Positions 34,492-64,000 of a stretch of DNA of 64,000 bases are shown piece by piece. This DNA is from Deroplatys truncata. Lineage: Eukaryota; Arthropoda; Insecta; Mantodea; Mantidae. Made by a program: the position numbers and the translations under genes. The notes below the pieces were generated by a model. The model was not told the DNA's origin and ran no database searches. It saw only the letters and a list, made by a program, of their open reading frames with translations. Every line of letters starts with the position of its first letter. The stretch's first letter is position 1. Where the stretch lies: assembly GCA_030765065.1 (NCBI GenBank), contig CM060977.1:129274295-129338294 (forward strand). Reading direction: 5' to 3'.

Positions 34492-34494
34492 TAT

Positions 34495-34747
34495 TTTTTC
34501 TCAAATTTGATATTCATTTTTTTGTCCTGGTAATGCAAAGAGAATGGAATACTCCACATAGAAACCAGCTCTTAAGATATTTGTCTATAGTTTAAAGCCT
34601 ACCAATTCCCCTTGCATCTACAAAAAAATTAGCAATAAGATTAACATCTCGATATCTCGATTAACATGAAGCATATGGAGAATAAGCGTTTGTAAAAATA
34701 GTTTGTACAAGAGTAGAGAATGTCTAGTGAGTGGAACACATCAGATT
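34495..34747 (-). repeat. Family A, inverted 5' fragment
   Basis: Matches the first about 250 bp of the family in inverted orientation, ending ACACATCAGATTATTA. Confidence 0.7.
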
Positions 34748-38033: not shown

Positions 38034-38039
38034 ATAAAT

Positions 38040-42899: not shown

Positions 42900-43618
42900 T
42901 TTTGTCACAGTAACCACTCGTGTTATCTTATTTGCTGAGCGCCTGTTATTGTTTTAATATTTTGAATTTTGGGTTCTTTGTCCTCCGGCTAGCTATTATT
43001 ACTCAGTCGAGCAAATATCTCTAAGCAGGGCGTGTAAACGGAAAGGAGCTGTTACTAAAAAGTAACACTGATAAAAGAATTTGTTTTCACACTTTTATTG
43101 CCGTCACAATTAATAGTTCACATCTGTAATCTTTATACACGCCTGACTGAAACTGTTATATTTCCGAATGTAATTACTGTTGTACCCGTATTTTACATTT
43201 TGTAACTAACTTTACGACGCGAGAGATTCTGTAGAATTGCGTAATGTGTACCTCATGAATGCTTCTGTAGAACTGCGCGATACTTGCTTTTAGCTCAAGA
43301 ATTTATACTCCCTCACCCCGGTATGCCTAAACACTATAATAGAGCTGCTATTGGTTACCAAATCGCGCTAACATTAGCGTCTATTTTGTCAGCCAATCAT
43401 AATTACAAACACATATGCTCTAGGGAAGATATTCCCTCCATTTCTAAAGAAAGGCACGCTACCCTGACGGCATTTGTTTCTCTCTTCTAAGTGATAAACA
43501 ACTCACCCCATCGCTTCATTGTTACTCACTCCTATTGTCAGTTTCAGTGAGGCCGTGTAAACTTATTTCCTAACAATGCTTATAGCTAAACAAACATCTA
43601 AAATCATTGTCATACAAT
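42900..43618 (+). repeat. Repeat family C, copy 2, left part of a split copy
   Basis: Matches 30700-31418 up to CATACAAT. The remainder of the family resumes at 62537 after 18.9 kb of inserted DNA. Confidence 0.8.
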
Positions 43619-43669
43619 AGTAGAATTGTTAAGCCGATACGGAGCCATAAAGGATTTGCCGCCATCTGA

Positions 43670-44110
43670 TAAGGTTCTTTGATCTATGCCGCTAGCCCCG
43701 CCCCCTCCCTTTGAGGCCTCACATGCCGCCCCGGTCGCGTGCCGCTAGCCCCGCCCCCTTCCCTTTGTGGCCTCACCTAATGCCGACAGGTTCTGTGCCG
43801 GCAGGTCCTCCCCCCCCTCCCCCTGTGGTCTGGTCACGTGGCGGTGTTCCCGCCCCCCTCCCTCCCCCATACGCGTGTCCTCCCTCCCCTTTGTGTTCTG
43901 GTTGGTTCCCTGTGGATAGGTGTGAGAGTGTGTATTGATCCTATACGTCGGTCGCGTGCCTTCCCTAGGTCTAAATCCCTGCCGTGTGATTGGCTTGGGG
44001 TAGGGGATGTGCCGCTCGGGGTGAGGGGTTATATGTGAGGGTTCTCGGTGCGTGACGTTGGCGGTGTGGGAATGCGATTCTCGATGCCTGCCGCACATCG
44101 GCAAATCGTT
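43670..44110. other. GC-rich subterminal island, left arm
   Basis: This is the only strongly GC-rich tract in the window apart from its mirror. It contains two copies, about 55 bp apart (about 43688 and 43742), of a unit with GCCGCTAGCCCCGCCCCC and TCCCTTTG(A/T)GGCCTCAC. These include GC-box (GGGGCGGGG-type) sequences. Opposed frames of 75 and 129 residues are both low-complexity and probably not coding. A role as promoter, replication or packaging region of the element is inference. Confidence 0.6.
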
Positions 44111-44189
44111 TGAGTACATAATTGCCTCAATCAATTAGGTAATGTGTGTTATTGAAAAAAGAATCGCTATCATATTACTACTAATGCAA

Positions 44190-46300
44190 TTAAACGCTAT
44201 TCTTCGAGCAATTAAGTATTTTTGATTGAATCGCGCACACCTGTCCCTAAACCGCCATTTATAACCTACTATTGTCAATAAATTACACGTCTAATGAAAC
44301 ACGGCTAGTCTGTCGATGAAAACAATTAAGTATTTTTGAATGATTAATTGACTCGCGCGCAACTGTTCGTTATCGTATATGTGTGGTAGCATGTGTATAA
44401 TTATTACGAGTAATAACATTTATTTAATTCTACTTTTGAGGGAAAATATATTTTGGATTTATAAGAATATTACAACACTTAGATGAAATGACAGACTTGA
44501 CGTAACACTCGTTATCGCGTGATAATTGAGGTGGAACACCGACCGCAACCTTCCGTTGCGAGACGTTTCACTGGAATGACTAACTCTCGATATTTGGACT
44601 GGCAAGTCGACTTCCGCATCCCCTCCACATGCGTTTCAGTTCGCCAGCTACACTAGCGCGCCAAGTGGTAATACGAGTGAAACTCCAACGAGTGTTCCCA
44701 CACAGCGCCCCTGGTGGTCATATCCGAAAGTTGTGAATTCACCATATTTAAATTCGAGGTGTACGCAAGACGGCCATCTTAACTCTATATAATTCTGCGA
44801 AATATGATTCCGGAAAAAAAAATAAAGGCGAATTAACATGCGAGGTGCGTTCATGTTGGCTCCGGAGGAATTGATTATGAAATAAATAAAAAATAAATAA
44901 GACTCTCGCTGATCGATGAATACAATGAATAATTAATGTAATTGACTCGCGCTCCTAGAGATATCTCACCCAATTATTCATCTACCATGAATATCTCACT
45001 TCTAATGAAACGGCGCAGTCTATCGATTAAAACAATTAAGTTTTTTTTGATTGATTAATGTAATTGACTCGCGCGCAACTGTTCGTTATCGTATATGCGC
45101 GATTATTACGCGTATATAACTATTACGGCTAATAACGTGTGTTTAATTCTTCTTTTGAATTGCGGGTTTATAAAAAATATTACATTGCTTAGATGAATTA
45201 AAAAGCAACTTAAAGCGAAATTGCAAATAGCTTGTATGAGACGTTAACACGAGAACCCTTTACGAAAAAACAAGACGCAATGTGACAGCAATGCCCTGTC
45301 CATCATGAGAGGCGGTTAAAACAGGACGCGAGGGTTTTCCCCACTACCTGCTCTTAATGGCTAGGGGTATCCAGCACATAGGAGTACGCTTCAACAAAGC
45401 CTGCTATGTCTCTTCTCACACGAGAGAAGTAATAATTACAATTCAAAACAGGCGTACCTGTAAGTAACACGCACGAAGACTACAAATATAAATTTTATAT
45501 TCGTTTTAAATGTTCTTTCTAAAGACGTAGCGAACTTTGAGAAATTCATCGAATTATTCACTGGCGTACACTGCCTGAAAGAAATATGGTGTACACCCCT
45601 GAAGAATGCATATGTAGACCCATTAGCAGACAAGGGCAAAACTCTTCCGCACCATTAATTTTCGTCAGAAGAATGTAAAAACAAGGTCTTGTATAGAGCT
45701 CTTAGTGAACAATGACACCCGTTTTCCAGTTGATTAAACATCCAAAGTGCTCTGAAAAACCACAGGCCCTCGGGGATAAATAACTTTTAGCGATACAAAA
45801 AGATCTTAATGGCTTCCCCGGTACAGAAATTCCATCATAGACAGTGGAAAAACCAAGTCTAGACATGTTTTAAGCTTACCACAAAAAAATGTTTTCCCGA
45901 TAATTAATATAATTCTACATGAAGAATATTAATGATTAAGTTTCAATTAAACGTATACTGTATAGATTCTGTACTTAAACATTCGATTGTATCTTTGTCA
46001 TTATTTAAATACTCGCGTACAAGAAATGCAAACATGATATCAAAAAATTAAACTGATTTTTTTTTCGGAATGTTAAACAAAGAAATACGATTTGGCGAGA
46101 GTAATATGAAGAATAAAAAGTATTCAGAATGATAGATATTACATACGTTATTAAAATAAGGCTCTCGCTGATCGATGAAAACAATTAAATATTTTTTTAT
46201 TAATTAATTGTATATGAATTGACTCGCGCATTTGCTTGCTGTCGTATGTGCATGATTATTACGACTAATAGCATTTGTTTAATTCTAAATAATGAAATAT
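44190..46300 (+). repeat. Dispersed repeats of about 150-200 bp, left arm
   Basis: A block reading CGATGAAAACAATTAAGTAT, then TGATTAATTGACTCGCGCG, then ACTGTTCGTTATCGTATATG and TATTACG(A/G)(G/C)TAATAAC recurs at about 44305-44500, 45020-45225 and 46165-46300. Shorter forms are at 44205-44245 and 44910-44960. The copies share order and orientation. They resemble iterated protein-binding or origin-like repeats, or old internal duplications. Confidence 0.7.
45459..45657 (+). CDS. Candidate exon, hypothetical protein (left arm)
   Basis: A plus-strand frame without an ATG runs to a stop at 45655-45657. Its end reads KDVANFEKFIELFTG and WCTPLKNAYVDPLADKG, balanced composition unlike the low-complexity shadows around it. 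A possible splice acceptor (TTCTTTCTAAAG) lies near 45511-45522, so the true exon may begin there. I recognise no family. It could be the last exon of an element gene or a relic. Confidence 0.35.
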
Positions 46301-46484
46301 GGAGCCTTGCCTAAACAATCCTCGTTACTCTTAATTTATTCCATTTTTAAAAAGATTGGGCTTAGTAAACATAGGACGAGTACGATTTTAAATACCCCAT
46401 CCATTCGAGAGATATTTTTCGAATATTCCAGCATGTTAATATAAACTTAATACACACACACGCACAAATTCATTTCAAGTAATC

Positions 46485-47920
46485 TAACGATATTGAATAA
46501 AATATTAAATGTTTAAGATATTGTAATGAGAAATGAATTGTATATCTCGAATTTTCTGGGCCGCAGGCTGCAGGATCGCTCATCAAATACCGTAATGATT
46601 CAGACACCCGAACACCCGAATGGTAAGCATTCTTCAGAGTTTTTAAATAAGTAATGTAACAATTCATATTAACTTCTTGTTCAAATTCTTTATTATTATT
46701 TGTATTATTATTTCCAGGAAGTGGACTTTATTTTGGTATCGACCATCCATCGAGCGCTGCACAGGCAGCGCCAGGCTTCCAAACCTTCCTGGTACCAAAT
46801 CATCATGGAGACGGCTCTGCCATCCGTACATGCAGCAACACTCGTAAGGTGAGAATTTACAGACGGTTGTTTGAGGATTTGTAACTAAAAAATTACATGA
46901 TAGTAGACATACAATGTCGATTCTGGCACACAAAGGCATGCCTCCGACAGCATAGAGTTCTGGATTGTATAAGGAGAAAAGGATATATTTAAGGGGAGTT
47001 TCTCACCCATATGCAGTCACATAACTCTTTCGGTCTCCCAGAATGCTATGTATTTTTCACGAGGGTGTTTAAAACATGTATTTTTTTCACGTATAGAGTG
47101 TAGATTCTTTAAAACTCTGTACTTAAACATGCTATACTATTATTATTTATTTATTTTTTCCAGGAAATGGACTTTATTTCGGAGGCGGTATCGGTCAACA
47201 TGCGACCGCTGCACCGGTAGCATCAGGCTTCGCTAGCGTTGTACCAGCAGGCTTCGCGACCGCTGCACCGCCACCTCCAGGCTTCCAGACCTTCCTGGCA
47301 CCAAATCAGCAGGGTGGGGGCCCTGCCCCATACATGCAGCAAGCACCGAACGGTAAGAATTTTTTCAATATTTTATGAAGTTCTGTTTACACATTCTATA
47401 TTATTATTAATATTGTTATTATTTTCAGGAAGTGGACTTTATTTCGGAGGCGGGTTTTTTCTGGGAATGTCTCCAAAGTATTCTTCATTCTGAACGACTT
47501 TTGCAAAACTGATAAACCATAAGAGATAGACAAAATTTTACTACACAAAAAAAGAGATCGCGTTAAAATACATAATTTATAACATATACATTCTTGTTGT
47601 TGAGTAAATCGTTTTTCGAGATATTGCTTGTTATTCCATTAAAATTTTCCAATACTTATACTTTTTCTCAAATTCATTATTCTTGTTTTATGTCCTCGAT
47701 ATGCAAAGAGAATGGAATGCACCACATAGCAACCAGCGTTAAAATATTTGACTATCGCTTAAAACCTATCATATTCACATTGTATCGTCATGAAAATTAC
47801 CAATAACATTGACATCTCGATATCTCGATTAACATGAAGCATATAGGGAATAAGTGCTTGTAAAAATAGTTTGTACAAGAGTAGAGAAAGCCATGTGAGT
47901 GTATCACATCAGATTTTTTG
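46485..47920 (-). repeat. Family A copy in left arm, split by a captured exon block
   Basis: Inverted A sequence ends TATATCTCGAATTTTCTGGG at 46560 and resumes TTTTCTGGGAATGTCTCC at 47457, continuing to ATCACATCAGATTTTTT near 47920. The 896 bp between are foreign (46561-47456). The 9-bp TTTTCTGGG is present on both sides, as expected of a target-site duplication. Confidence 0.75.
46561..47456 (+). pseudogene. Block of duplicated Gly/Ala/Pro-rich exons (left arm)
   Basis: Three homologous exons follow canonical acceptors. They are at 46718-46848, 47164-47352 and from 47429 (truncated by the block end); the tail of a fourth ends at donor 46622/46623. Each starts (N/S)GLYFG. The complete middle exon is 189 bp, phase 1 on both sides, with TAAPPPPGFQTFLAPNQQGG-type sequence. 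The first full exon has a net +2 shift near its end, so it is decayed. Introns are 315 and 76 bp. The parent gene is not recognised; a repetitive Gly-rich structural or viral-coat-like protein is possible. Confidence 0.6.
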
Positions 47921-47929
47921 ATATTGGTT

Positions 47930-48130
47930 TAAATTTTCAAATACATTTAACTTTTCTCAAGCGGTAACTCGCTATTCGTTTTTTCCCGTGGTAATGCATA
48001 GAGAATAGAATTATAAAGCCATCACATAGCATCAGACGTTCTTTAAACATCTGTAACGTGTCTATTCACAATCGAAAGGTTGCTGGTTCGAGGAAAATTA
48101 TATCTACAGAAACAATACATTATTTTCGCT
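47930..48130. repeat. Family A-like remnant with tRNA-like B box (left arm)
   Basis: Diverged family-A-like sequence (ATTTAACTTTTCTCAAGCGG, AATGCATAGAGAATAG) followed at about 48060-48105 by TTGCTGGTTCGAGGAAAA, which resembles a polymerase III B box. Mirrored in the right arm near 58025-58225. Confidence 0.4.
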
Positions 48131-48422
48131 CTGTGATTAATTTGGTAATGTAACAATAATTAACAATGAATTTTTAGCGGTAAATGTAAAAAATAAAATA
48201 TATTTTTTATTTCCTAGCGTCATACGCAGAAGCATTCCCCTTAAGGAACGCTGGCGTGAGCGATGGTTTCCCCCATAACGGGTTTAGACTTGCTTACGAA
48301 ATGTCCCTGTGCGAGGCTAGCATTTCCCTCTCCTTCTCGAATTTTTGGAGTAGCCAATCAAAATTGCTGTATTATATACCGTCACATCTCTCACCCCTTC
48401 AGATTTTTATCAGGCGAAGCGA

Positions 48423-48456
48423 TATAAAAGCAGTAGCTTCCCCAGCGATTTCACTG
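48423..48456 (+). promoter_or_regulatory. TATA box and initiator of the two-exon arm gene (left)
   Basis: TATAAA at 48423-48428 and an arthropod-type initiator TCACTG at 48451-48456 are 30 bp apart (TATA to the initiator A at 48453), the canonical distance. The predicted leader is 75 nt to the ATG at 48528. Confidence 0.75.
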
Positions 48457-48527
48457 TATTGTGACAACACAGCGAGCTAAGATCTCTGCAAACTTTTCTC
48501 ATTCAAAGTGAAATTTCAACGAACATC

Positions 48528-49527
48528 ATGTCTGGTAAGTTGTAACAAAACACTTCATTTACTTTAAAAGTTAAATTATTACTCTGTACATTTAACTTAT
48601 ATTCGCGTTCTTGTTTTTAATGCATGGCATTTATATGCGAATAGCTGAGCATTCTAAAAGTTAATAGCTAGACAAGTGAATTTTCTGAAATGTGAACAGT
48701 TTAGTTAAGTATTCATTTTAGGCAAGCTTATTCTACATTTAATAGCTAACTGCGCGAATTCTCAAAATGGGAACAATTTAGTTAAGTATTCACCTTGTTG
48801 AGTAATTATTATTCCAGATATTTAAATACAGGATTTCACAGAGTGAATTATATTCCTTTTTGGAGAAAATACAATTATTTGAATACCTTATTAACGTTTT
48901 TGCTTTAGAATATTACAAAAAGTCTGTTGCGCGAATCATTCGCTCTAACAAAGTAAATATCTACATTATATTAAAACATTTAAATTGAAAAATACAGTAC
49001 TTAATGAACTTCATTAGTGAATCAGAACCTCAATTATATTTACACATATTATCATTTTCAGAAAAAAGTTAATAAGTTTGTAACTTTCAAATAAATGAAA
49101 TTTTTGTTATGCAACACATTCTCTAATAAAGAATATGTTTTTTTCTCTTCCTAATGCAGAAAGTTTGACATCTCAACTTAACACATTGGCTGAGGGTAGC
49201 ATTTACCCAGCCGTTCAAAGACTACAAGATCTTCAGCCAGAGGAGCCTTATAATATAAAATCCTTAAGAAAAATTGATACTCGATACGGTGCTAGAGTCG
49301 TTGCACTTTTAGAGAATAAGCAAGTGTTTCTCCCGACAAGATATTCAACCCTAACAAGCCAACAGTTGGAGGAAATGCCTGGGAAGTTTCAAATGGTATA
49401 TCACGGAGTAGTACCAGCCGGCAAGTTTAAGACATGTAAATTGTCTTTTCTTCCTATTAAGGTTTGTAGAAATAATTCAGCTATCCTTTCAAAGCTTCAT
49501 TTAGAGTTACATTCGTTGAGTTTATAA
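48528..49527 (+). CDS. Two-exon gene, 124-residue unknown protein (left arm)
   Basis: Coding exon 1 is only 7 nt (48528-48534): ATG, one codon and one base, followed by donor GTAAGT. The intron is 48535-49159, ending CTAATGCAG. Exon 2 is 49160-49527. Splicing replaces the weak in-intron ATG at 49135 and keeps the frame. The protein is 124 residues with a pattern TRYGARVVALLENKQVFLP, then LTSQQLEEMPGKF and YHGVVPAGKF. I recall small proteins with a similar arrangement in arthropod mobile or virus-like DNA, and an OB-fold nucleic-acid-binding role is conceivable, but I cannot name the family. An alternative donor after 49461 (AAG/GTTTGT) with acceptor at 49871-49872 would give a shorter, different C terminus. 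It converges on the C2HC-finger gene. Confidence 0.7.
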
Positions 49528-49558
49528 ATTCGCACTTCAGTAGGATAACATTTGTCTA

Positions 49559-49985
49559 AAGTATACATCAATATGTAAAAAAATAACGTCCAGGATGTAG
49601 TCTGAGCGAGGATCTGCAGAAAGAAGTTTAATAGTCTATTCACTGATTCTTTACCTCAAAGCAGATACCTACAGTAAGTTTCAAATAATTTCCAGCACGA
49701 TAGCAGTTGTCAAAAGCAGGCATCACTGTATTAAAAAAATATGTGTAAATAATGTCTAGATTGTACTCTGTGTGATTTCGTGCAGAAAGAACTTTAATAC
49801 CCCTTGCAGTGATTCTCCACATCGAAGTATATACCTACAAGAAGTTGCAAATAATGTGAATGTGTGTTACAGGAATGCCCAGCTGAATGTAAATGAAGAG
49901 GAAGAACGAGATAGCTTAAAACATCATAAACAGAAATGTGATAGGAACATTCTCAACACCTCCCAGTAACCTCAATCAATGAAGA
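49559..49985 (+). repeat. Imperfect tandem duplication in the 3' region (left arm)
   Basis: A segment with AATAACGTCCAGGATGTAGT, CTGCAGAAAGAAGTTTAATA and ATACCTACAGTAAGTTTCAA (from about 49581) is repeated in diverged form about 165-175 bp later. The second copy ends in a good splice acceptor (GTGTTACAG at 49864-49872), followed by a 31-codon acidic frame to 49969. This could be an alternative terminal exon. Mirror at about 56169-56595. Confidence 0.5.
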
Positions 49986-50257
49986 ATTGCACCAGTGCGG
50001 AACATACATGGAAAAAACATCCGAGTGTGTAGAATATAACAATAATATATATATATAATTATGTACTCATTATTACTGCTATACCAGCCTATACCATTGA
50101 TTTCATAAATAATTTCATAATTGTTTAAGGAGAATGCCTATCTTAAAAACATTGATGCTACATGAACTATTACTGAAAGAGACTTGAATAAATGGGAATC
50201 TAGAAGCCAGAACCATCTTAATATTGGGCTGTATGATATGAGGTGTATAAAAAGATT

Positions 50258-50263
50258 AATAAA
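50258..50263 (+). terminator. Poly(A) signal AATAAA for the two-exon gene (left arm)
   Basis: AATAAA on the plus strand about 730 bp after the stop. The opposing finger gene's AATAAA lies about 30 bp further on, on the other strand, so the two transcripts overlap tail to tail. Mirror near 55888-55894. Confidence 0.5.
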
Positions 50264-50553
50264 AAATGAGGTCTATGTAATATAAACAACATTTATTTTT
50301 TATAAACATTTTCCTATTACATTCCTATACAAAAAACATACATATTTCCTAAAGACAAAGGTGATAGTCTAGACATTCTAAAACACTCAGTTATATAATC
50401 ATATACATCACACAGAAAGAGACCTGCATTATCCATAAAAAACTAAACATCTCAAGAATGTCTGGATGATGTATTTTATAAGTACAAGGTTTTGATATTT
50501 CAAAGTTCCTGTTAACCATGACTGTAATTGATTAACACAATTTCTCGATCCTG

Positions 50554-51021
50554 TCATGCTATAACTTTAGAAGCTTTCAGCTTACTTATAATCTCCTCAA
50601 TCTCTTGTGTGTGACTATTATTACCAGCATTCCTCGATGCAATTAGTAACCTCAATATATTTACTAGTCTATTTGGATTTTCAAGCTTAGATATCACTGA
50701 ATCATCATCATATGAAGATTTCATATTCTCGCGACTCCCGCTGTATCCAGATTTTTCACCATCAGTAGTCTCCAGTGAAGGACAGAGGCTTGATCCGGTA
50801 TAACATCCCCCTCTATACATCTTCGGATCTTCGAGTGTAGGAGAGAGAGTCGATCCAGTATAACATGTTGCTCTATGAAGCTTAAATCTTGACAAAGAAC
50901 GATTCTTAAAAATCCGCTCGCATATACAGCATCTAATGACGTGTTTTCCTCCATGTGTAATGTATGAAAAATTGAGTTTCTCATCCGCTAGTTGCACAGA
51001 TTTTCTCCGGCAGGAGCTCAT
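50554..51021 (-). CDS. C2HC zinc-finger protein, 155 residues (left arm)
   Basis: Open from ATG at 51021 to the stop at 50554. The N-terminal half has C31-x2-C34-x14-H49-x3-C53, a single C2HC finger like those of BED-type or transposon-linked DNA-binding proteins. It is followed by an internal duplication (CYTGSTLSPTLED at 53-65, CYTGSSLCPSLET at 73-85). The C-terminal third is Leu/Ile-rich and predicted helical (ENPNRLVNILRLLIASRN), as for dimerisation. No catalytic domain is present. A role in binding element DNA is inference. It differs from the right-arm copy by one residue seen only in an overlapping frame; the 155-residue protein appears identical. Confidence 0.7.
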   Translation of the reverse strand: MSSCRRKSVQLADEKLNFSYITHGGKHVIRCCICERIFKNRSLSRFKLHRATCYTGSTLSPTLEDPKMYRGGCYTGSSLCPSLETTDGEKSGYSGSRENMKSSYDDDSVISKLENPNRLVNILRLLIASRNAGNNSHTQEIEEIISKLKASKVIA

Positions 51022-51164
51022 GCTAAAACTAAAAGAAATTAAATGAATACGGGAATGCTAACGCTCGAAGGAATTAAAAGCGAATGAATGAATTCATAAC
51101 ACGCAGCTATGTATATATTCAGTGTGAGGACGCCGGAGGGAATCGCAATCTTCGCATAGCAGCG

Positions 51165-51335
51165 GGAAAGGATGCTCTCTGGAAACATTTGTGGAGAAGG
51201 AGGCTCTCAACAGAACATGGCGAATGCGAGCATGGAAAAAGGATGCTCTCTGGGAACATTCGTGGAAAAAGGATGCTCTCAACAGAACATAACGAGTGCG
51301 AGCATGGAAAAAGGATGCTCTCTGGAAACGTTTGT
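51165..51335 (+). repeat. 71-72-bp tandem repeat at the inner end of the left arm
   Basis: GGATGCTCTCTGG begins at 51170, 51241 and 51313, giving a period of 71-72 bp; between them CTCTCAACAGAACAT and GCGAGCATGGAAAAA recur. The mirror occupies 54816-54986. Confidence 0.85.
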
Positions 51336-54300
51336 GGAAAAGGCTGCGTAACTAAGGAATCACGTTATGTAACAAAGGAATCACGCTATGTAACAAAGGA
51401 ATCGCGCTATGTAACAAAGGAATCGCGCTATGTAACAAAGGAATCGCGCTATGTAACAAAGGAAACACGCCATGTAACAAAGGAATCGCGCTATGTAACA
51501 AAGGAATCGCGCCATGTAACAAAGGAATCGCGCCATGTAACAAAGGAATCGCGCTATGTAACAAAGGAATCGAGCCATGTAACCAAGGAATCGCGCCATG
51601 TAACAAAGAAATCGCGCCATGTAACAAAGGAATCGCGCCATGTAACAAAGGAATCGCGCCATGTAACAAAGGAATCGCGGTATGTAACAAAGGAATCGCG
51701 GTATGTAACAAAGGAATTGCGCCATGTAACAAAGGAATCGCGGTATGTAACAAAGGAATCGCGCCATGTAACAAAGGAATCGCGCCATGTAACAAAGGAC
51801 TCACGCCATGTAACAAAGGAATCGCGCCATGTAACAAAGGACTCACGCCATGTAACAAAGGAATCGCGGTATGTAACAAAGGAATCGCGCCATGTAACAA
51901 AGGAATCGCGCCATGTAACAAAGGAATCGCGCCATGTAACAAAGGAATCGCGCTATGTAACAAAGGAATCGCGCTATGTAACAAAGGAATCGCGACATGT
52001 AACAAAGGAATCGCGCCATGTAACAAAGGAATCGCGCCATGTAACAAAGGAATCGCGGTATGTAACAAAGGAATCGCGCCATGTAACAAAGGAATCACGC
52101 CATGTAACAAAGGAATCACGCCATGTAACAAAGGAATCGCGCCATGTAACAAAGGAATCACGGTATGTAACAAAGGAATCACGCTATGTAACAAAGGAAT
52201 CGCGCTATGTAACAAAGGAATCGCGACATGTAACAAAGGAATCGCGCTATGTAACAAAGGAATCGCGCCATGTAACCAAGGAATCGCGCCATGTAACAAA
52301 GGAATCACGCCATGTAACAAAGGAATCACGCCATGTAACAAAGGAATCGCGGTATGTAACAAAGGAATCGCGCCATGTAACAAAGGAATCGCGCCATGTA
52401 ACAAAGGAATCGCGCCATGTAACAAAGGAATCGCGCCATGTAACAAAGGAATCGCGCCATGTAACAAAGGAATTGCGCCATGTAACAAAGGAATCGCGCT
52501 ATGTAACAAAGGAATCGCGCCATGTAACAAAGGAATCGCGGTATGTAACAAAGGAATCGCGCCATGTAACAAAGGAATCGCGCCATGTAACAAAGGAATC
52601 GCGCTATGTAACAAAGGACTCACGGTATGTAACAAAGGAATCGCGCCATGTAACAAAGGAATCGCGCTATGTAACAAAGGACTCACGCCATGTAACAAAG
52701 GAATCGCGCCATGTAACAAAGGAATCGCGCCATGTAACAAAGGAATCGCGCCATGTAACAAAGGAATCACGGTATGTAACAAAGGAATCACGGTATGTAA
52801 CAAAGGAATCGCGCCATGTAACAAAGGAATCGCGCTATGTAACAAAGGACTCACGCCATGTAACAAAGGACTCACGCCATGTAACAAAGGAATCGCGCCA
52901 TGTAACAAAGGACTCACGCCATGTAACAAAGGAATCGCGCTATGTAACAAAGGAATCGCGCCATGTAACAAAGGAATCGCGGTATGTAACAAAGGAATCG
53001 CGCCATGTAACAAAGGAAAGGCGCCATGTAACAAAGGAATCGCGCTATGTAACAAAGGACTCACGCCATGTAACAAAGGAATCGCGCCATGTAACAAAGG
53101 AATCGCGCCATGTATCAAAGGAATCACGGTATGTAACAAAGGAATCGCGCCATGTAACAAAGGAATCGCGCCATGTAACAAAGGAATCTCGCCATGTAAC
53201 AAAGGAATCGCGCCATGTAACAAAGGAATCACGCCATGTAACAAAGGAATCGCGCCATGTAACAAAGGAATCGCGCTATGTAACAAAGGAATCGCGCTAT
53301 GTAACAAAGGACTCACGCCATGTAACAAAGGAATCGCGCTATGTAACAAAGGAATCGCGGTATGTAACAAAGGAATCGCGCTATGTAACAAAGGACTCAC
53401 GCCATGTAACAAAGGAATCGCGCCATGTAACAAAGGAATCGCGGTATGTAACAAAGGAATCGCGCTATGTAACAAAGGACTCACGCCATGTAACAAAGGA
53501 ATCGCGCCATGTAACAAAGGAATCGCGCCATGTAACAAAGGAATCGCGCCATGTAACAAAGGAATCGCGCCATGTAACAAAGGAATCGCGCTATGTAACA
53601 AAGGAATCGCGCTATGTAACAAAGGAATCGCGCTATGTAACAAAGGACTCACGCCATGTAACAAAGGACTCGCGCCATGTAACAAAGGAATCGCGCCATG
53701 TAACAAAGGAATCGCGCCATGTAACAAAGGAATCGCGCCATGTAACAAAGGAATCACGGTATGTAACAAAGGAATCGCGCCATGTAACAAAGGAATCGCG
53801 CCATGTAACAAAGGAATCACGGTATGTAACAAAGGAATCGCGCCATGTAACAAAGGAATCACGGTATGTAACAAAGGAATCACGCCATGTAACAAAGGAA
53901 TCGCGCCATGTAACAAAGGAATCGCGCCATGTAACAAAGGAATCGCGCCATGTAACAAAGGAATCGCGCTATGTAACAAAGGAATCGCGCTATGTAACAA
54001 AGGACTTACGCCATGTAACAAAGGAATCGCGCCATGTAACAAAGGAATCGCGGTATGTAACAAAGCAATCGCGCTATGTAACAAAGGACTCACGCCATGT
54101 AACAAAGGAATCGCGGTATGTAACAAAGGAATCGCGGTATGTAACAAAGGAATCACGCTATGTAACAAAGGACTCACGCCATGTAACAAAGGAATCGCGC
54201 CATGTAACAAAGGAATCGCGCCATGTAACAAAGGAATCGCGGTATGTAACAAAGGAATCGCGCCATGTAACAAAGGAATCGCGCCATGTAACAAAGGAAT

Positions 54301-54815
54301 CGCGCTATGTAACAAAGGAATCGCGCTATGTAACAAAGGAATCGCGCCATGTAACAAAGGAATCGCGCTATGTAACAAAGGAATCGCGCTATGTAACAAA
54401 GGACTCGCGCCATGTAACAAAGGACTCGCGCCATGTAACAAAGGAATCGCGCCATGTAACAAAGGAATCGCGCCATGTAACAAAGGAATCGCGCCATGTA
54501 ACAAAGGAATCACGGTATGTAACAAAGGAATCGCGCCATGTAACAAAGGAATCGCGCCATGTAACAAAGGAATCACGCCATGTAACAAAGGAATCGCGCC
54601 ATGTAACAAAGGAATCACGGTATGTAACAAAGGAATCACGCTATGTAACAAAGGAATCGCGCTATGTAACAAAGGAATCGCGCCATGTAACAAAGGAATC
54701 GCGCCATGTAACAAAGAAATCGCGCCATGTAACAAAGGAATCGCGCTATGTAACAAAGGAATCACGCTATGTAACAAAGGAATCACGCTATGTAACAATG
54801 GAATCACGCTATGTA
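51336..54815. repeat. 21-bp tandem array forming the loop (about 165 units)
   Basis: The consensus unit is GTAACAAAGGAATCGCGCCAT. Units differ mainly at a few positions (GAATCG or GACTCA; CGCCAT, CGCTAT, CGGTAT or CACxxxT), giving a small set of variant types in a mosaic order. Because 21 is a multiple of three and the consensus lacks stops in five of six frames, huge frames of 1,262 residues (plus, VTKESRH repeats) and 1,167 residues (minus) are open without implying coding. The array is not palindromic. Confidence 0.95.
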
Positions 54816-55033
54816 ACAAACGTTTCCAGAGAGCATCCTTTTTCCATGCTCGCACTCGTTATGTTCTGTTGAGAGCATCCTTTTTCCACGAATGTTCCCA
54901 GAGAGCATCCTTTTTCCATGCTCGCATTCGCCATGTTCTGTTGAGAGCCTCCTTCTCCACAAATGTTTCCAGAGAGCATCCTTTCCCGCTGCTATGCGAA
55001 GATTGCGATTCCCTCCGGCGTCCTCACACTGAA

Positions 55034-55065
55034 TATATACATAGCTGCGTGTTATGAATTCATTC
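55034..55065 (+). promoter_or_regulatory. TATA box and possible initiator of the finger gene (right arm)
   Basis: TATATA at 55034-55039 and an initiator-like TCATTC at 55060-55065, 28 bp apart, 68 bp before the ATG. Mirror at about 51086-51117 in the left arm. Confidence 0.5.
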
Positions 55066-55129
55066 ATTCGCTTTTAATTCCTTCGAGCGTTAGCATTCCC
55101 GTATTCATTTAATTTCTTTTAGGTTTAGC

Positions 55130-55597
55130 ATGAGCTCCTGCCGGAGAAAATCTGTGCAACTAGCGGATGAGAAACTCAATTTTTCATACATTACACATGG
55201 AGGAAAACACGTCATTAGATGCTGTATATGCGAGCGGATTTTTAAGAATCGTTCTTTATCAAGATTTAAGCTTCATAGAGCAACATGTTATACTGGATCG
55301 ACTCTCTCTCCTACACTCGAAGATCCGAAGATGTATAGAGGGGGATGTTATACCGGATCAAGCCTCTGTCCTTCACTGGAGACTACTGATGGTGAAAAAT
55401 CTGGATACAGCGGGAGTCGCGAGAATATGAAATCTTCATATGATGATGATTCAGTGATATCTAAGCTTGAAAATCCAAATAGACTAGTAAATATATTGAG
55501 GTTACTAATTGCATCGAGGAATGCTGGTAATAATAGTCACACACAAGAGATTGAGGAGATTATAAGTAAGCTGAAAGCTTCTAAAGTTATAGCATGA
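55130..55597 (+). CDS. C2HC zinc-finger protein, 155 residues (right arm)
   Basis: Mirror of 50554-51021. The base change near 55256 relative to the left arm is synonymous in this frame but changes Cys to Tyr in the overlapping 87-residue frame (55167-55430). This supports the 155-residue frame as the real one. A pyrimidine-rich acceptor-like TTTCTTTTAG lies 7 bp before the ATG, so an upstream leader exon is possible. Confidence 0.7.
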   Translation: MSSCRRKSVQLADEKLNFSYITHGGKHVIRCCICERIFKNRSLSRFKLHRATCYTGSTLSPTLEDPKMYRGGCYTGSSLCPSLETTDGEKSGYSGSRENMKSSYDDDSVISKLENPNRLVNILRLLIASRNAGNNSHTQEIEEIISKLKASKVIA

Positions 55598-55853
55598 CAG
55601 GATCGAGAAATTGTGTTAATCAATTACAGTCATGGTTAACAGGAACTTTGAAATATCAAAACCTTGTACTTATAAAATACATCATCCAGACATTCTTGAG
55701 ATGTTTAGTTTTTTATGGATAATGCAGGTCTCTTTCTGTGTGATGTATATGATTATATAACTGAGTGTTTTAGAATGTCTAGACTATCACCTTTGTCTTT
55801 AGGAAATATGTATGTTTTTTGTATAGGAATGTAATAGGAAAATGTTTATAAAA

Positions 55854-55859
55854 AATAAA
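55854..55859 (+). terminator. Poly(A) signal AATAAA of the finger gene (right arm)
   Basis: AATAAA about 257 bp after the stop codon, followed by a GT/T-rich stretch. Mirror at about 50292-50297. Confidence 0.6.
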
Positions 55860-56626
55860 TGTTGTTTATATTACATAGACCTCATTTTTTTATTAATCTT
55901 TTTATACACCTCATATCATACAGCCCAATATTAAGATGGTTCTGGCTTCTAGATTCCCATTTATTCAAGTCTCTTTCAGTAATAGTTCATGTAGCATCAA
56001 TGTTTTTAAGATAGGCATTCTCCTTAAACAATTATGAAATTATTTATGAAATCAATGGTATAGGCTGGTATAGCAGTAATAATGAGTACATAATTATATA
56101 TATATATATTATTGTTATATTCTACACACTCGGATGTTTTTTCCATGTATGTTCCGCACTGGTGCAATTCTTCATTGATTGAGGTTACTGGGAGGTGTTG
56201 AGAATGTTCCTATCACATTTCTGTTTATGATGTTTTAAGCTATCTCGTTCTTCCTCTTCATTTACATTCAGCTGGGCATTCCTGTAACACACATTCACAT
56301 TATTTGCAACTTCTTGTAGGTATATACTTCGATGTGGAGAATCACTGCAAGGGGTATTAAAGTTCTTTCTGCACGAAATCACACAGAGTACAATCTAGAC
56401 ATTATTTACACATATTTTTTTAATACAGTGATGCCTGCTTTTGACAACTGCTATCGTGCTGGAAATTATTTGAAACTTACTGTAGGTATCTGCTTTGAGG
56501 TAAAGAATCAGTGAATAGACTATTAAACTTCTTTCTGCAGATCCTCGCTCAGACTACATCCTGGACGTTATTTTTTTACATATTGATGTATACTTTAGAC
56601 AAATGTTATCCTACTGAAGTGCGAAT

Positions 56627-57626
56627 TTATAAACTCAACGAATGTAACTCTAAATGAAGCTTTGAAAGGATAGCTGAATTATTTCTACAAACCTTAATAG
56701 GAAGAAAAGACAATTTACATGTCTTAAACTTGCCGGCTGGTACTACTCCGTGATATACCATTTGAAACTTCCCAGGCATTTCCTCCAACTGTTGGCTTGT
56801 TAGGGTTGAATATCTTGTCGGGAGAAACACTTGCTTATTCTCTAAAAGTGCAACGACTCTAGCACCGTATCGAGTATCAATTTTTCTTAAGGATTTTATA
56901 TTATAAGGCTCCTCTGGTTGAAGATCTTGTAGTCTTTGAACGGCTGGGTAAATGCTACCCTCAGCCAATGTGTTAAGTTGAGATGTCAAACTTTCTGCAT
57001 TAGGAAGAGAAAAAAACATATTCTTTATTAGAGAATGTGTTGCATAACAAAAATTTCATTTATTTGAAAGTTACAAACTTATTAACTTTTTTCTGAAAAT
57101 GATAATATGTGTAAATATAATTGAGGTTCTGATTCACTAATGAAGTTCATTAAGTACTGTATTTTTCAATTTAAATGTTTTAATATAATGTAGATATTTA
57201 CTTTGTTAGAGCGAATGATTCGCGCAACAGACTTTTTGTAATATTCTAAAGCAAAAACGTTAATAAGGTATTCAAATAATTGTATTTTCTCCAAAAAGGA
57301 ATATAATTCACTCTGTGAAATCCTGTATTTAAATATCTGGAATAATAATTACTCAACAAGGTGAATACTTAACTAAATTGTTCCCATTTTGAGAATTCGC
57401 GCAGTTAGCTATTAAATGTAGAATAAGCTTGCTTAAAATGAATACTTAACTAAACTGTTCACATTTCAGAAAATTCACTTGTCTAGCTATTAACTTTTAG
57501 AATGCTCAGCTATTCGCATATAAATGCCATGCATTAAAAACAAGAACGCGAATATAAGTTAAATGTACAGAGTAATAATTTAACTTTTAAAGTAAATGAA
57601 GTGTTTTGTTACAACTTACCAGACAT
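56627..57626 (-). CDS. Two-exon gene, 124-residue unknown protein (right arm)
   Basis: Mirror copy: coding exon 1 at 57620-57626, intron 56995-57619, exon 2 at 56627-56994, all signals preserved. The exon 2 protein is identical to that of the left arm. A decayed transposon would not be expected to keep two open copies with intact splice sites unless young, converted, or selected. Confidence 0.7.
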
Positions 57627-57697
57627 GATGTTCGTTGAAATTTCACTTTGAATGAGAAAAGTTTGCAGAGATCTTAGCTCGCTGTGTTGTCACAATA

Positions 57698-57731
57698 CAG
57701 TGAAATCGCTGGGGAAGCTACTGCTTTTATA
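57698..57731 (-). promoter_or_regulatory. TATA box and initiator of the two-exon arm gene (right)
   Basis: Exact mirror of the left-arm promoter: TATA box complement at 57726-57731, initiator complement at 57698-57703. Confidence 0.75.
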
Positions 57732-58235
57732 TCGCTTCGCCTGATAAAAATCTGAAGGGGTGAGAGATGTGACGGTATATAATACAGCAATTTTGATTGG
57801 CTACTCCAAAAATTCGAGAAGGAGAGGGAAATGCTAGCCTCGCACAGGGACATTTCGTAAGCAAGTCTAAACCCGTTATGGGGGAAACCATCGCTCACGC
57901 CAGCGTTCCTTAAGGGGAATGCTTCTGCGTATGACGCTAGGAAATAAAAAATATATTTTATTTTTTACATTTACCGCTAAAAATTCATTGTTAATTATTG
58001 TTACATTACCAAATTAATCACAGAGCGAAAATAATGTATTGTTTCTGTAGATATAATTTTCCTCGAACCAGCAACCTTTCGATTGTGAATAGACACGTTA
58101 CAGATGTTTAAAGAACGTCTGATGCTATGTGATGGCTTTATAATTCTATTCTCTATGCATTACCACGGGAAAAAACGAATAGCGAGTTACCGCTTGAGAA
58201 AAGTTAAATGTATTTGAAAATTTAAACCAATATCA

Positions 58236-59670
58236 AAAAATCTGATGTGATACACTCACATGGCTTTCTCTACTCTTGTACAAACTATTTTTACAAGCAC
58301 TTATTCCCTATATGCTTCATGTTAATCGAGATATCGAGATGTCAATGTTATTGGTAATTTTCATGACGATACAATGTGAATATGATAGGTTTTAAGCGAT
58401 AGTCAAATATTTTAACGCTGGTTGCTATGTGGTGCATTCCATTCTCTTTGCATATCGAGGACATAAAACAAGAATAATGAATTTGAGAAAAAGTATAAGT
58501 ATTGGAAAATTTTAATGGAATAACAAGCAATATCTCGAAAAACGATTTACTCAACAACAAGAATGTATATGTTATAAATTATGTATTTTAACGCGATCTC
58601 CATTTTTTGTGTAGTAAAATTTTGTCTATCTCCTATGGTTTATCAGTTTTGCAAAAGTCGTTCAGAATGAAGAATACTTTGGAGACATTCCCAGAAAAAA
58701 CCCGCCTCCGAAATAAAGTCCACTTCCTGAAAATAATAACAATATTAATAATAATATAGAATGTGTAAAAAGAACTTCATAAAATATTGAAAAAATTCTT
58801 ACCGTTCGGTGCTTGCTGCATGTATGGGGCAGGGCCCCCACCCTGCTGATTTGGTGCCAGGAAGGTCTGGAAGCCTGGAGGTGGCGGTGCAGCGGTCGCG
58901 AAGCCTGCTGGTACAACGCTAGCGAAGCCTGATGCTACCGGTGCAGCGGTCGCATGTTGACCGATACCGCCTCCGAAATAAAGTCCATTTCCTGGAAAAA
59001 ATAAATAAATAATAATAGTATAGCATGTTTAAGTACAGAGTTCTAAAGAATCTACACTCTATACGTGAAAAAAATACATGTTTTAAACACCCTCGTGAAA
59101 AATACATAGCATTCTGGGAGACCGAAAGAGTTATGTGACTGCATATGGGTGAGAAACTCCCCTTAAATATATCCTTTTCTCCTTATACAATCCAGAACTC
59201 TATGCTGTCGGAGGCATGCCTTTGTGTGCCAGAATCGACATTGTATGTCTACTATCATGTAATTTTTTAGTTACAAATCCTCAAACAACCGTCTGTAAAT
59301 TCTCACCTTACGAGTGTTGCTGCATGTACGGATGGCAGAGCCGTCTCCATGATGATTTGGTACCAGGAAGGTTTGGAAGCCTGGCGCTGCCTGTGCAGCG
59401 CTCGATGGATGGTCGATACCAAAATAAAGTCCACTTCCTGGAAATAATAATACAAATAATAATAAAGAATTTGAACAAGAAGTTAATATGAATTGTTACA
59501 TTACTTATTTAAAAACTCTGAAGAATGCTTACCATTCGGGTGTTCGGGTGTCTGAATCATTACGGTATTTGATGAGCTATCCTGCAGCCTGCGGCCCAGA
59601 AAATTCGAGATATACAATTCATTTCTCATTACAATATCTTAAACATTTAATATTTTATTCAATATCGTTA
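58236..59670 (+). repeat. Family A copy in right arm with captured exon block
   Basis: Mirror of 46485-47920: A sequence from AATCTGATGTGATACACTCA (about 58240) to CCCAGAAAA near 58698, then the exon block, then A sequence again from about 59586. Confidence 0.75.
58699..59593 (-). pseudogene. Block of duplicated Gly/Ala/Pro-rich exons (right arm)
   Basis: Mirror of 46561-47456 with the same splice signals, read on the minus strand. One base differs from the left arm in the intron near 59040. Confidence 0.55.
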
Positions 59671-60288
59671 GATTACTTGAAATGAATTTGTGCGTGTGTG
59701 TGTATTAAGTTTATATTAACATGCTGGAATATTCGAAAAATATCTCTCGAATGGATGGGGTATTTAAAATCGTACTCGTCCTATGTTTACTAAGCCCAAT
59801 CTTTTTAAAAATGGAATAAATTAAGAGTAACGAGGATTGTTTAGGCAAGGCTCCATATTTCATTATTTAGAATTAAACAAATGCTATTAGTCGTAATAAT
59901 CATGCACATACGACAGCAAGCAAATGCGCGAGTCAATTCATATACAATTAATTAATAAAAAAATATTTAATTGTTTTCATCGATCAGCGAGAGCCTTATT
60001 TTAATAACGTATGTAATATCTATCATTCTGAATACTTTTTATTCTTCATATTACTCTCGCCAAATCGTATTTCTTTGTTTAACATTCCGAAAAAAAAATC
60101 AGTTTAATTTTTTGATATCATGTTTGCATTTCTTGTACGCGAGTATTTAAATAATGACAAAGATACAATCGAATGTTTAAGTACAGAATCTATACAGTAT
60201 ACGTTTAATTGAAACTTAATCATTAATATTCTTCATGTAGAATTATATTAATTATCGGGAAAACATTTTTTTGTGGTAAGCTTAAAAC

Positions 60289-60453
60289 ATGTCTAGACTT
60301 GGTTTTTCCACTGTCTATGATGGAATTTCTGTACCGGGGAAGCCATTAAGATCTTTTTGTATCGCTAAAAGTTATTTATCCCCGAGGGCCTGTGGTTTTT
60401 CAGAGCACTTTGGATGTTTAATCAACTGGAAAACGGGTGTCATTGTTCACTAA
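60289..60453 (+). CDS. Weak candidate small ORF (right arm; mirror in left arm)
   Basis: A 54-codon frame from ATG 60289 to TAA 60451-60453, mirrored at about 45702-45866 on the minus strand. Composition is mixed and no motif is recognised. Listed as a possibility only. Confidence 0.2.
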   Translation: MSRLGFSTVYDGISVPGKPLRSFCIAKSYLSPRACGFSEHFGCLINWKTGVIVH

Positions 60454-60497
60454 GAGCTCTATACAAGACCTTGTTTTTACATTCTTCTGACGAAAAT

Positions 60498-60696
60498 TAA
60501 TGGTGCGGAAGAGTTTTGCCCTTGTCTGCTAATGGGTCTACATATGCATTCTTCAGGGGTGTACACCATATTTCTTTCAGGCAGTGTACGCCAGTGAATA
60601 ATTCGATGAATTTCTCAAAGTTCGCTACGTCTTTAGAAAGAACATTTAAAACGAATATAAAATTTATATTTGTAGTCTTCGTGCGTGTTACTTACA
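60498..60696 (-). CDS. Candidate exon, hypothetical protein (right arm)
   Basis: Mirror of the left-arm candidate exon at 45459-45657, unchanged as far as I could read. The opposing 67-residue frame at 60516-60719 is its shadow. Confidence 0.35.
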
Positions 60697-62044
60697 GGTA
60701 CGCCTGTTTTGAATTGTAATTATTACTTCTCTCGTGTGAGAAGAGACATAGCAGGCTTTGTTGAAGCGTACTCCTATGTGCTGGATACCCCTAGCCATTA
60801 AGAGCAGGTAGTGGGGAAAACCCTCGCGTCCTGTTTTAACCGCCTCTCATGATGGACAGGGTATTGCTGTCACATTGCGTCTTGTTTTTTCGTAAAGGGT
60901 TCTCGTGTTAACGTCTCATACAAGCTATTTGCAATTTCGCTTTAAGTTGCTTTTTAATTCATCTAAGCAATGTAATATTTTTTATAAACCCGCAATTCAA
61001 AAGAAGAATTAAACACACGTTATTAGCCGTAATAGTTATATACGCGTAATAATCGCGCATATACGATAACGAACAGTTGCGCGCGAGTCAATTACATTAA
61101 TCAATCAAAAAAAACTTAATTGTTTTAATCGATAGACTGCGCCGTTTCATTAGAAGTGAGATATTCATGGTAGATGAATAATTGGGTGAGATATCTCTAG
61201 GAGCGCGAGTCAATTACATTAATTATTCATTGTATTCATCGATCAGCGAGAGTCTTATTTATTTTTTATTTATTTCATAATCAATTCCTCCGGAGCCAAC
61301 ATGAACGCACCTCGCATGTTAATTCGCCTTTATTTTTTTTTCCGGAATCATATTTCGCAGAATTATATAGAGTTAAGATGGCCGTCTTGCGTACACCTCG
61401 AATTTAAATATGGTGAATTCACAACTTTCGGATATGACCACCAGGGGCGCTGTGTGGGAACACTCGTTGGAGTTTCACTCGTATTACCACTTGGCGCGCT
61501 AGTGTAGCTGGCGAACTGAAACGCATGTGGAGGGGATGCGGAAGTCGACTTGCCAGTCCAAATATCGAGAGTTAGTCATTCCAGTGAAACGTCTCGCAAC
61601 GGAAGGTTGCGGTCGGTGTTCCACCTCAATTATCACGCGATAACGAGTGTTACGTCAAGTCTGTCATTTCATCTAAGTGTTGTAATATTCTTATAAATCC
61701 AAAATATATTTTCCCTCAAAAGTAGAATTAAATAAATGTTATAACTCGTAATAATTATACACATGCTACCACACATATACGATAACGAACAGTTGCGCGC
61801 GAGTCAATTAATCATTCAAAAATACTTAATTGTTTTCATCGACAGACTAGCCGTGTTTCATTAGACGTGTAATTTATTGACAATAGTAGGTTATAAATGG
61901 CGGTTTAGGGACAGGTGTGCGCGATTCAATCAAAAATACTTAATTGCTCGAAGAATAGCGTTTAATTGCATTAGTAGTAATATGATAGCGATTCTTTTTT
62001 CAATAACACACATTACCTAATTGATTGAGGCAATTATGTACTCA

Positions 62045-62485
62045 AACGATTTGCCGATGTGCGGCAGGCATCGAGAATCGCATTCCCACACCGCCAACGT
62101 CACGCACCGAGAACCCTCACATATAACCCCTCACCCCGAGCGGCACATCCCCTACCCCAAGCCAATCACACGGCAGGGATTTAGACCTAGGGAAGGCACG
62201 CGACCGACGTATAGGATCAATACACACTCTCACACCTATCCACAGGGAACCAACCAGAACACAAAGGGGAGGGAGGACACGCGTATGGGGGAGGGAGGGG
62301 GGCGGGAACACCGCCACGTGACCAGACCACAGGGGGAGGGGGGGGAGGACCTGCCGGCACAGAACCTGTCGGCATTAGGTGAGGCCACAAAGGGAAGGGG
62401 GCGGGGCTAGCGGCACGCGACCGGGGCGGCATGTGAGGCCTCAAAGGGAGGGGGCGGGGCTAGCGGCATAGATCAAAGAACCTTA
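62045..62485. other. GC-rich subterminal island, right arm
   Basis: Mirror copy of the left island, with the same duplicated GC-box unit near 62395-62470. Confidence 0.6.
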
Positions 62486-62536
62486 TCAGATGGCGGCAAA
62501 TCCTTTATGGCTCCGTATCGGCTTAACAATTCTACT

Positions 62537-62620
62537 TACAATAATGTTAGTTTACACTACAATCACTCTGGCATTCACAGTGTTGTGATATAAAACACTG
62601 CCTCAATTTATAACTATAAC
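62537..62620 (+). repeat. Repeat family C, copy 2, right part of the split copy
   Basis: Resumes with TACAATAATGTTAGTTTACA and ends ACTGCCTCAATTTATAAC, matching 31418-31500 of the uninterrupted copy. Confidence 0.8.
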
Positions 62621-63541: not shown

Positions 63542-63561
63542 TCATTTTTGGCGCATATGAA

Positions 63562-63562
63562 C

Positions 63563-63595
<33 letters not shown>

Positions 63596-63601
63596 GAGAG
63601 G
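63562..63601. repeat. (GA)n microsatellite
   Basis: An almost pure GA run interrupted once by GG. It breaks the end of the piggyBac-like frame, which becomes Ser-Leu repeats. Confidence 0.95.
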
Positions 63602-63604
63602 TGT

Positions 63605-64000
63605 TATCTTCACCGAATCCAAATATAGATGACAGTTCTTGATGCGAAGACGATGGTTGCATTTTTGGTGTATATAGGGCTTGTTTCTTTTCACAATACC
63701 AACTATAGACAAATTCCAAATCAGCAGCAGTCTTACTAATCGCAGAGTTGTGAAAAAATTGTCAGGAACAATATTTATGCCGGTACCTTTGAAATGATAA
63801 CACAGATCTTTCACTACCTTCTCTCCTTGATTAGCTTCTCTTCCAGAAACAGATTTCCCCGTAACAATTTGGCCAGTTATTGGGTAAGAATTTCGTGAAT
63901 CACAAATCCAGCAAACCTTCAAGTCATTATTTGGCTTACTTTCAGGGCATGTACCGAGTAAATCTTGTCTTGTCTTTGTAAGAAAACAGCTGCTCATCAA
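63605..64000 (-). pseudogene. piggyBac-type transposase fragment, cut by window edge
   Basis: The minus frame from the window edge carries WICDSRNSYPITGQIVTGKS, then NQGEKVV and VPDNFFTTLRLVRLLL, then VGIVKRNK. These are the order and motifs of the piggyBac catalytic core; the Asp in ICDSRNSY corresponds to the second catalytic Asp. The N-terminal part with the first Asp would lie beyond 64000. After IVKRNKPYIHQK homology is lost and the GA run follows, so the C-terminal part, with the last catalytic residues and Cys-rich finger, is missing. A truncated relic is most likely. Confidence 0.8.

Follow-up and report, generated by a model that had tools for sequence, protein, structure and literature searches.

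Fold-back elements of the FB kind move by cut and paste, and FB, Galileo and Mutator elements leave target-site duplications of 7–9 bp. Copy-back defective genomes, known from RNA viruses and from symmetric adenovirus recombinants, have one end duplicated in inverted orientation, have lost core genes and depend on a helper in trans. Replication of Polintons is believed to be protein-primed, but its intermediates have hardly ever been seen. Vertebrate Mavericks are described with 6-bp duplications, (AG)3 or (AGT)2 end motifs, lengths of 12.7–24.6 kb and terminal inverted repeats (TIRs) of 46–1,447 bp (PMC8097293), adintoviruses are defined by an adenovirus-like hexon and an integrase with a C-terminal chromodomain (PMC11071296), Tetris of Drosophila is an apparently nonautonomous fold-back element with tandem repeats of about 220 bp in its TIRs (PMC4079207), Galileo is placed in the P superfamily, and adenovirus panhandle replication appears as the title of a reference (PMC9863843). 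Here we describe an 18.9-kb fold-back element in a window of 64,000 nucleotides of the mantis Deroplatys truncata (C3:129274295-129338294 of the 4.29-Gb genome assembly). We propose, with a probability of about 0.72, that it is a non-autonomous satellite of Polintons and has persisted for long. In this view copy-back replication gave rise to it, factors supplied in trans mobilise it, and its two arms are equalised in every cycle or, in part, through gene conversion afterwards.

Architecture of the element

Comparison of the window with itself by BLASTN gave one long inverted match, 43619-51335 against 62536-54816, with 99.806% identity over 7,721 columns. Compared base by base, the two arms differ by 11 substitutions in 7,717 aligned bases, and the right arm has 4 additional bases spread over three places. 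The loop between them is a 21-bp tandem array of 165.4 copies (93% match, zero indels) which runs one way and is not mirrored; its 165 whole units fall into 22 distinct types. A 72-bp repeat of 2.4 copies lies at the inner end of each arm. The preliminary description had reported two near-identical arms of 7,717 and 7,721 bp around 3.5 kb of 21-bp repeats, and these coordinates hold in both the self-comparison and the repeat scan. It had also called the unit precisely bounded, and the boundaries are indeed exact: the edges read TACAAT (43613-43618), AGTAGAATTG ... CAATTCTACT, TACAAT (62537-62542), an exact 6-bp target-site duplication which that description had not mentioned. The element ends in AGTAG at both sides (5'-AG / CT-3' type termini). 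In a Pfam scan, six arm frames matched no model at all, be it for PolB, integrase, capsid, ATPase or a transposase. The earlier picture of a giant, complete fold-back with genes in each arm holds, and no transposition gene is recognisable in it. Two such genes, a predicted gene referred to here as gene A and an open reading frame (ORF) called zinc-finger-like from a Cys/His pattern recognised by eye, are listed below with the other features; some of these were located by comparison with the full-length Polintons described in the following section.

43613..43618, no strand: left target-site duplication TACAAT (end reading)
43619..51335, + strand: left arm, 7,717 bp, begins AGTAGAATTG (self-BLASTN)
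43619..44229, + strand: terminal 0.6 kb (arm 1-611), common to both ends of full Polinton copies (alignment to full copies)
46561..47451, + strand: GLYFGG-motif exon region (arm 2943-3833), homologous to the PolB 5' exons of full copies, order swapped (alignment)
48528..48534, + strand: gene A predicted exon 1 (ATGTCTG, donor GTAAGT; comparison with 5/5 full copies)
49160..49461, + strand: gene A predicted exon 2 (ORF and gene prediction)
49873..49896, + strand: gene A predicted exon 3, including the stop codon (gene prediction)
50554..51021, - strand: zinc-finger-like ORF, left arm (ORF; C-terminal comparison with full copies)
51167..51341, + strand: 72-bp repeats, inner end of the left arm (tandem-repeat scan)
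51348..54820, + strand: loop, 21-bp tandem array, 165.4 copies (tandem-repeat scan)
54816..62536, - strand: right arm, 7,721 bp, inverted (self-BLASTN)
54816..54984, - strand: 72-bp repeats, inner end of the right arm (tandem-repeat scan)
55130..55597, + strand: zinc-finger-like ORF, right arm (ORF)
56693..56994, - strand: gene A exon 2, right arm (mirror of the left arm; ORF 56627-57055)
58704..59594, - strand: GLYFGG region, right arm (mirror of the left arm)
61926..62536, - strand: terminal 0.6 kb, right arm (mirror of the left arm)
62537..62542, no strand: right target-site duplication TACAAT (end reading)

Relationship to full-length Polintons of the same genome

The same genome contains five full elements, C1, C2, C4b, C8 and C16c, which are about 20 kb long and whose end repeats measure only some 0.6 kb. 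C2 carries a DJR capsid domain (6.4e-109), a PLA2-like domain, an rve integrase (Pfam) and a weak Adeno_PX match that falls below the curated cut-off; this set was also found in C16c, where the rve match lies just under the curated cut-off. An A32-type ATPase was found in C2. DNA_pol_B_2 was matched in C1 (2.7e-25) and C16c (1.4e-23), and the longer PolB ORF of C2 matched no polymerase model in the Pfam scan. The PolB of C2 is 45% identical to that of a Ladona dragonfly adintovirus, and its named best matches (among the best 120 of 3,716) are mostly insect proteins. The DJR-like domain and rve are thus seen in full copies, with no chromodomain among the Pfam models reported. Judged by their domains, the full elements are Polintons/adintoviruses. 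A different tandem repeat, of 67 bp, lies between their PolB and integrase ORFs (L025:1-555, L032:4-629, L038:1-579).

Arm positions 1-2865, 3839-5269 and 2943-3833 of the window element align to the five full copies at 81.0-96.5% identity (matches of at least 250 bp), the last two blocks standing in swapped order relative to the full copies. The outer 5 kb or so of the arm (1-5269) is therefore common to the fold-back and to full Polintons. On these shared ends and sequences, the window element is a non-autonomous derivative of autonomous-looking Polinton copies, and since ends and duplications are shared, we infer that it is mobilised in trans by the PolB and integrase of full copies. The preliminary description had considered the element unlike standard transposons and perhaps a new class. 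It does have relatives: the ends, the 6-bp duplication and the outer arms are those of co-resident Polintons, and it is therefore an extreme derivative of a known kind.

For three of ten fold-backs the nearest other end belongs to a full copy (C9 to C1, 1.89%; C5 and C14a to C16c, 2.5-2.7%), and for the other seven to another fold-back, some nodes of the tree being weakly supported. The outermost 23 bp or so of the ends occur as several interchangeable variants, some of them common to fold-backs and full copies, and the full copy C1 has different outermost variants at its two ends. The inner arm is more distant. Over the 41 codons that the zinc-finger-like ORF shares with full copies, synonymous divergence (dS) is about 1.06, a rough value. 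It seems from this value that the inner part of the fold-back lineage split from full copies long before the present outer arms did, which points to repeated end capture; the comparison of ends is partly in line with this. In a second fold-back subfamily 128 bp within this ORF are 82% identical to C2. A tblastx hint of an integrase remnant in the inner arm was not borne out by tblastn (best E 0.71) and is not claimed here.

Copies across the genome

When the first 501 bp of the arm were searched against the assembly, inverted pairs 7-32 kb apart were frequent among the best 40 of 3,049 candidates. The preliminary description had named the lack of any second copy of the termini, together with evidence of a chimeric fold-back read, as a finding that would speak against the element; ends and arms recur many times in the assembly. 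The inner arm (48950-51335) gave 40 strong matches at 98-100% (best 40 of 2,691 candidates), 22 of which make 11 inverted pairs while 18 are unpaired. A 25-base terminus tag, which the first 15 elements read carry at 28 of their 30 ends (both C6 ends are without it), occurs 384 times forward and 386 times in reverse (770 in all), and a reversed-pattern control 0 times. A 28-base gene A tag occurs 521 + 523 times with at most one mismatch (1,044; control 0). Among the first 100 gene A tags listed, 88 form 44 pairs, all head to head and none tail to tail, and 12 are unpaired; this proportion and the total of 1,044 suggest, by extrapolation, some 450-500 fold-backs genome-wide. The PolB tag of full copies was found 307 + 278 times.

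On C1, tallies were made from exact tag matches only, at the listed places of the terminus, PolB and gene A tags. The 16 elements tagged at both ends comprise seven with two inverted gene A tags, four with the PolB tag and five with neither, one of which has a capsid-region match. Among the 44 listed pairs, the gene A tags lie 3.3-8.1 kb apart in one group and 10.5-14.9 kb apart in another. At C1:13063074, 13067426 and 13071778, three gene A tags point the same way at intervals of exactly 4,352 bp, a possible tandem amplification of a piece of the arm.

Fourteen further elements were fetched in pieces: eight window-type fold-backs, the five full elements and one other fold-back (C16b). The window-type fold-backs C3b, C16a, C5, C4a, C9, C6 and C14b have array loops of differing length, and C14a has lost its loop. 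The middles and ends of two more fold-backs (C2d and C2e) were also read, as were parts of the second subfamily at C1:43.52 Mb. All 17 elements with both ends read (the window element and 16 others) have perfect 6-bp target-site duplications and AGTAG ends; the ends start AGTAGA, the exceptions being AGTAGC in one element and AGTAGG at one end. The second subfamily (C1:43523669-43541810) contains gene A and the zinc-finger-like ORF. Its centre is palindromic (self-inverse 94.8%), and each of its arms bears a diverged 21-bp array.

Likeness of the two arms within each copy

In nine window-type copies the two arms differ from each other by 0.14-0.73%, versus 1.34-3.61% between copies, and the left and right arms are sisters in 9/9 copies with a support of 1.0. 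The difference between copies is largest over the outermost 1.2 kb, at 5-7%, drops to 0.6-1.3% by arm positions 4801-7200, and is 1.5-1.7% in the last stretch; the difference within copies is steady along the arm at 0.2-0.6%, with 1.07% in the 72-bp repeats. Damage is shared in the same way: C4a lacks the promoter and exon 1 of gene A in both arms, and the zinc-finger-like ORF of C6 has a frameshift in both arms. The 0.6-kb ends are 0-1.2% apart within 10/10 fold-backs versus 1.5-5.4% within 5/5 full copies. Replication as a single strand, folded into a 7.7-kb duplex in which one arm templates the other, would account for arms that are nearly identical within copies though the copies differ.

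Long palindromes are known to undergo conversion, and the arms could instead be kept identical after insertion by gene conversion between the palindrome halves, with no part played by folded-strand replication. Arm differences are clustered, or leave a long clean run, in four of nine copies (C14a, C5, C4a and C9; p<0.05 by at least one of two measures), and C16a, C6 and C14b lie at 0.05-0.06, so that part of the arm identity may stem from conversion after insertion. As the whole explanation we consider it unlikely, since neither measure points to clustering in the window copy (p=0.37 for the variance-to-mean ratio, VMR, and p=0.66 for the longest clean run), the two arms of a copy diverge on average to much the same extent from one stretch to the next, and the ends of full copies, which are also (short) inverted repeats, have not been homogenised. 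Templating on a folded strand before insertion and palindrome conversion after it may both act.

Fold-backs with visible turn-back points

Three other fold-backs reveal three different turn-back points in the parental Polinton. C16b is a 7.15-kb fold-back in which parental positions 408-4536 are followed directly by 3454-408 in inverted orientation; 6 substitutions separate its arms over 3,068 columns, and its junction is blunt and without microhomology. Only one of 40 scored genome matches spans this junction, at the element's own locus, the other 39 being one-sided (best 40 of 2,923 candidates). C2d turns back inside PolB, at about parental position 1751/1794, with an overlap of about 11 bp and almost no loop, and its arms are 98.8% alike near the centre. 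In C2e the turn-back is at about 3343, the arms are 98.6% alike near the centre, and the two sides are unequal, as judged by tag positions.

Such elements might also arise when two linear Polinton molecules are joined end to end, without copy-back synthesis, and the blunt junction of C16b without microhomology would suit this. We hold it to be improbable. The arms of C16b are 6/3,068 apart versus 1.2-7.5% between the nearest ends of different copies, so two joined molecules would need to have been near-identical, and the overlap at the C2d junction also speaks against joining.

The long arms, the internal tandem repeats and the lack of core genes among the frames scanned would also suit a classical fold-back DNA transposon (FB, Galileo, Tetris or Mutator type) whose likeness to a Polinton is superficial; Tetris combines these features (PMC4079207). 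The 6-bp duplications with AGTAG ends in every element read at both ends, and the homology to full Polintons over some 5 kb, make this very improbable. An assembly artefact such as a chimeric fold-back read was rejected as next to impossible, since the fold-back shape resembles a missed-adaptor read but the one-way 3.5-kb loop array, the 11 arm differences, the exact duplications and the many copies do not fit one.

Genes carried by the arms

In 5/5 full copies ATGTCTG and a splice donor lie downstream of a TATA box, and this start exon joined to downstream acceptors would give the first residues of PolB, MSG(S/N)GLYFG or something very near it. In the fold-back, the PolB promoter and start exon stand in front of gene A, which is predicted to have three exons with GT-AG introns and to encode 110 amino acids. 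In full copies, an ORF lies upstream of integrase, and its C-terminus shares 83% identity with the last 41 amino acids of the zinc-finger-like ORF. Among the full-copy pieces searched, nothing matched the N-terminal portion of this ORF, nor did anything match gene A. Protein searches for gene A relatives gave 0/7 candidates at E<=0.001 and 0/8 at E<=10, and 0/16 stretches of viral contigs held one; no Pfam family reached its cut-off, the best PDB match had an E of 0.37, and nothing was drawn from a structure model with a mean pLDDT (predicted local distance difference test) of 55. For the zinc-finger-like ORF, searches of phage records and of viral contigs (0/9 stretches) found nothing similar, and it did not fit any zinc-finger model of Pfam.

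Exon 2 of gene A differs between the window and the second subfamily by 17 changes, distributed 6/0/11 over the codon positions (nonsynonymous divergence, dN, 0.031; dS 0.167), and 86 codons of the zinc-finger-like ORF give dN 0.041 and dS 0.110; introns and flank differ by 3.4-7.2%. In the nine copies, changes before/after insertion number 9/39 in coding versus 29/40 in non-coding sequence (Fisher p 0.009). Signs of conservation are moderate and mixed, and they lend moderate support to arm genes that would be functional, with their function supplied in trans.

A coding role for the 21-bp array was considered and rejected, the synonymous excess being weak (7/17 variant types); a unit of 21 bp, being divisible by 3, leaves several reading frames open. 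Its pattern had no match in viral contigs.

Other features of the window

Transposase fragments lie outside the element on the - strand: DDE_3 at 39816-40379 (1.3e-10), Transposase_1 at 17223-17594 (1.5e-06) and DDE_Tnp_1_7 at 63545-64000 (1.4e-09). A separate 72-bp tandem array of 18.6 copies (25446-26777) is unrelated to the element. A dispersed repeat of about 0.9 kb, about 75-92% identical, is present in both orientations (11404-12329, 16204-17089, 22917-23825, 28999-29916, 33613-34495 and 37156-38037), several copies overlapping CA/GT microsatellites.

Proposed origin

In the copy-back origin that we favour, a protein-primed polymerase would copy a linear Polinton from one end, turn back onto its own strand and return to the same end, leaving a product with two identical ends and without the second half. 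PolB and integrase from full Polintons could then replicate and insert this fold-back, and would suffice in trans because both of its ends would be genuine Polinton origins and integrase sites. The window lineage would be an old and successful one. It would have retained its own two genes, one of which sits behind PolB's promoter and first exon, and would go on swapping its outer arms with full Polintons.

Several observations weigh against this origin or against parts of it, besides the clustered arm differences given above. Copy-back is proposed here from elements in the genome sequence; neither a replication intermediate nor a transcript or a new insertion was observed. The inner 2.4 kb of the window arm had no DNA match in the six full-copy pieces tried, and the turn-back point of the window lineage is for this reason not visible. 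The arms of C2d and C2e match each other less closely than window-lineage arms do, C16b and its like could instead be two molecules joined end to end, and the contrast between fold-back and full-copy ends could be partly due to age. With regard to the genes, dS of gene A is above intron divergence, the coding changes before insertion are 7 nonsynonymous and 2 synonymous, and two copies, C4a and C6, moved although one gene in each was broken. Finally, only 7/19 gene A pairs on C1 are flanked by an exact end tag on each side, the remaining 12 having unread ends; these 12 and the two groups of spacings indicate a family more varied than the copies read.

A further-reaching idea, which we put forward tentatively and rate somewhat below even odds, is that these elements are self-standing Polinton satellites that regenerate from a single arm by hairpin copying, steal helper ends and use the helper's polymerase promoter to make a small conserved protein, possibly interfering with the helper or exploiting it. 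They would be virophage-like in an animal germline, and fold-backs would be continually born by copy-back.

Comparison with known systems

No fold-back or satellite Polinton was found by title or abstract start in the open-licence literature, subscription journals lying mostly outside this search. If the proposed origin is true, insertions in which copy-back junctions and the copying of one arm from the other are preserved would amount to a fossil record of Polinton replication. A defective interfering genome would then have turned into a stable, gene-carrying family of hundreds of copies, and helper dependence, interference and palindrome tolerance could be tested by counting and sequencing natural insertions.

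The element resembles Polintons/Mavericks and adintoviruses in its 6-bp duplication, AG-type termini, linear length of about 19 kb and homology of the outer arm and PolB 5' exons. It differs from them in arms that contain no PolB, integrase, capsid or ATPase model and that measure 7.7 kb, against TIRs of 46-1,447 bp reported for vertebrate Mavericks. Very long inverted arms and tandem repeats are shared with Tetris, Galileo and FB, whereas the ends, the homology and the 6-bp duplication are those of a Polinton and no transposase model was found in the arms. As in copy-back defective genomes, a turn-back junction in parental sequence is seen in C16b, C2d and C2e, though not in the window element; unlike such genomes, the fold-backs described here sit as insertions in a genome, flanked by target-site duplications, and a single lineage of them has grown into a large family with genes of its own.

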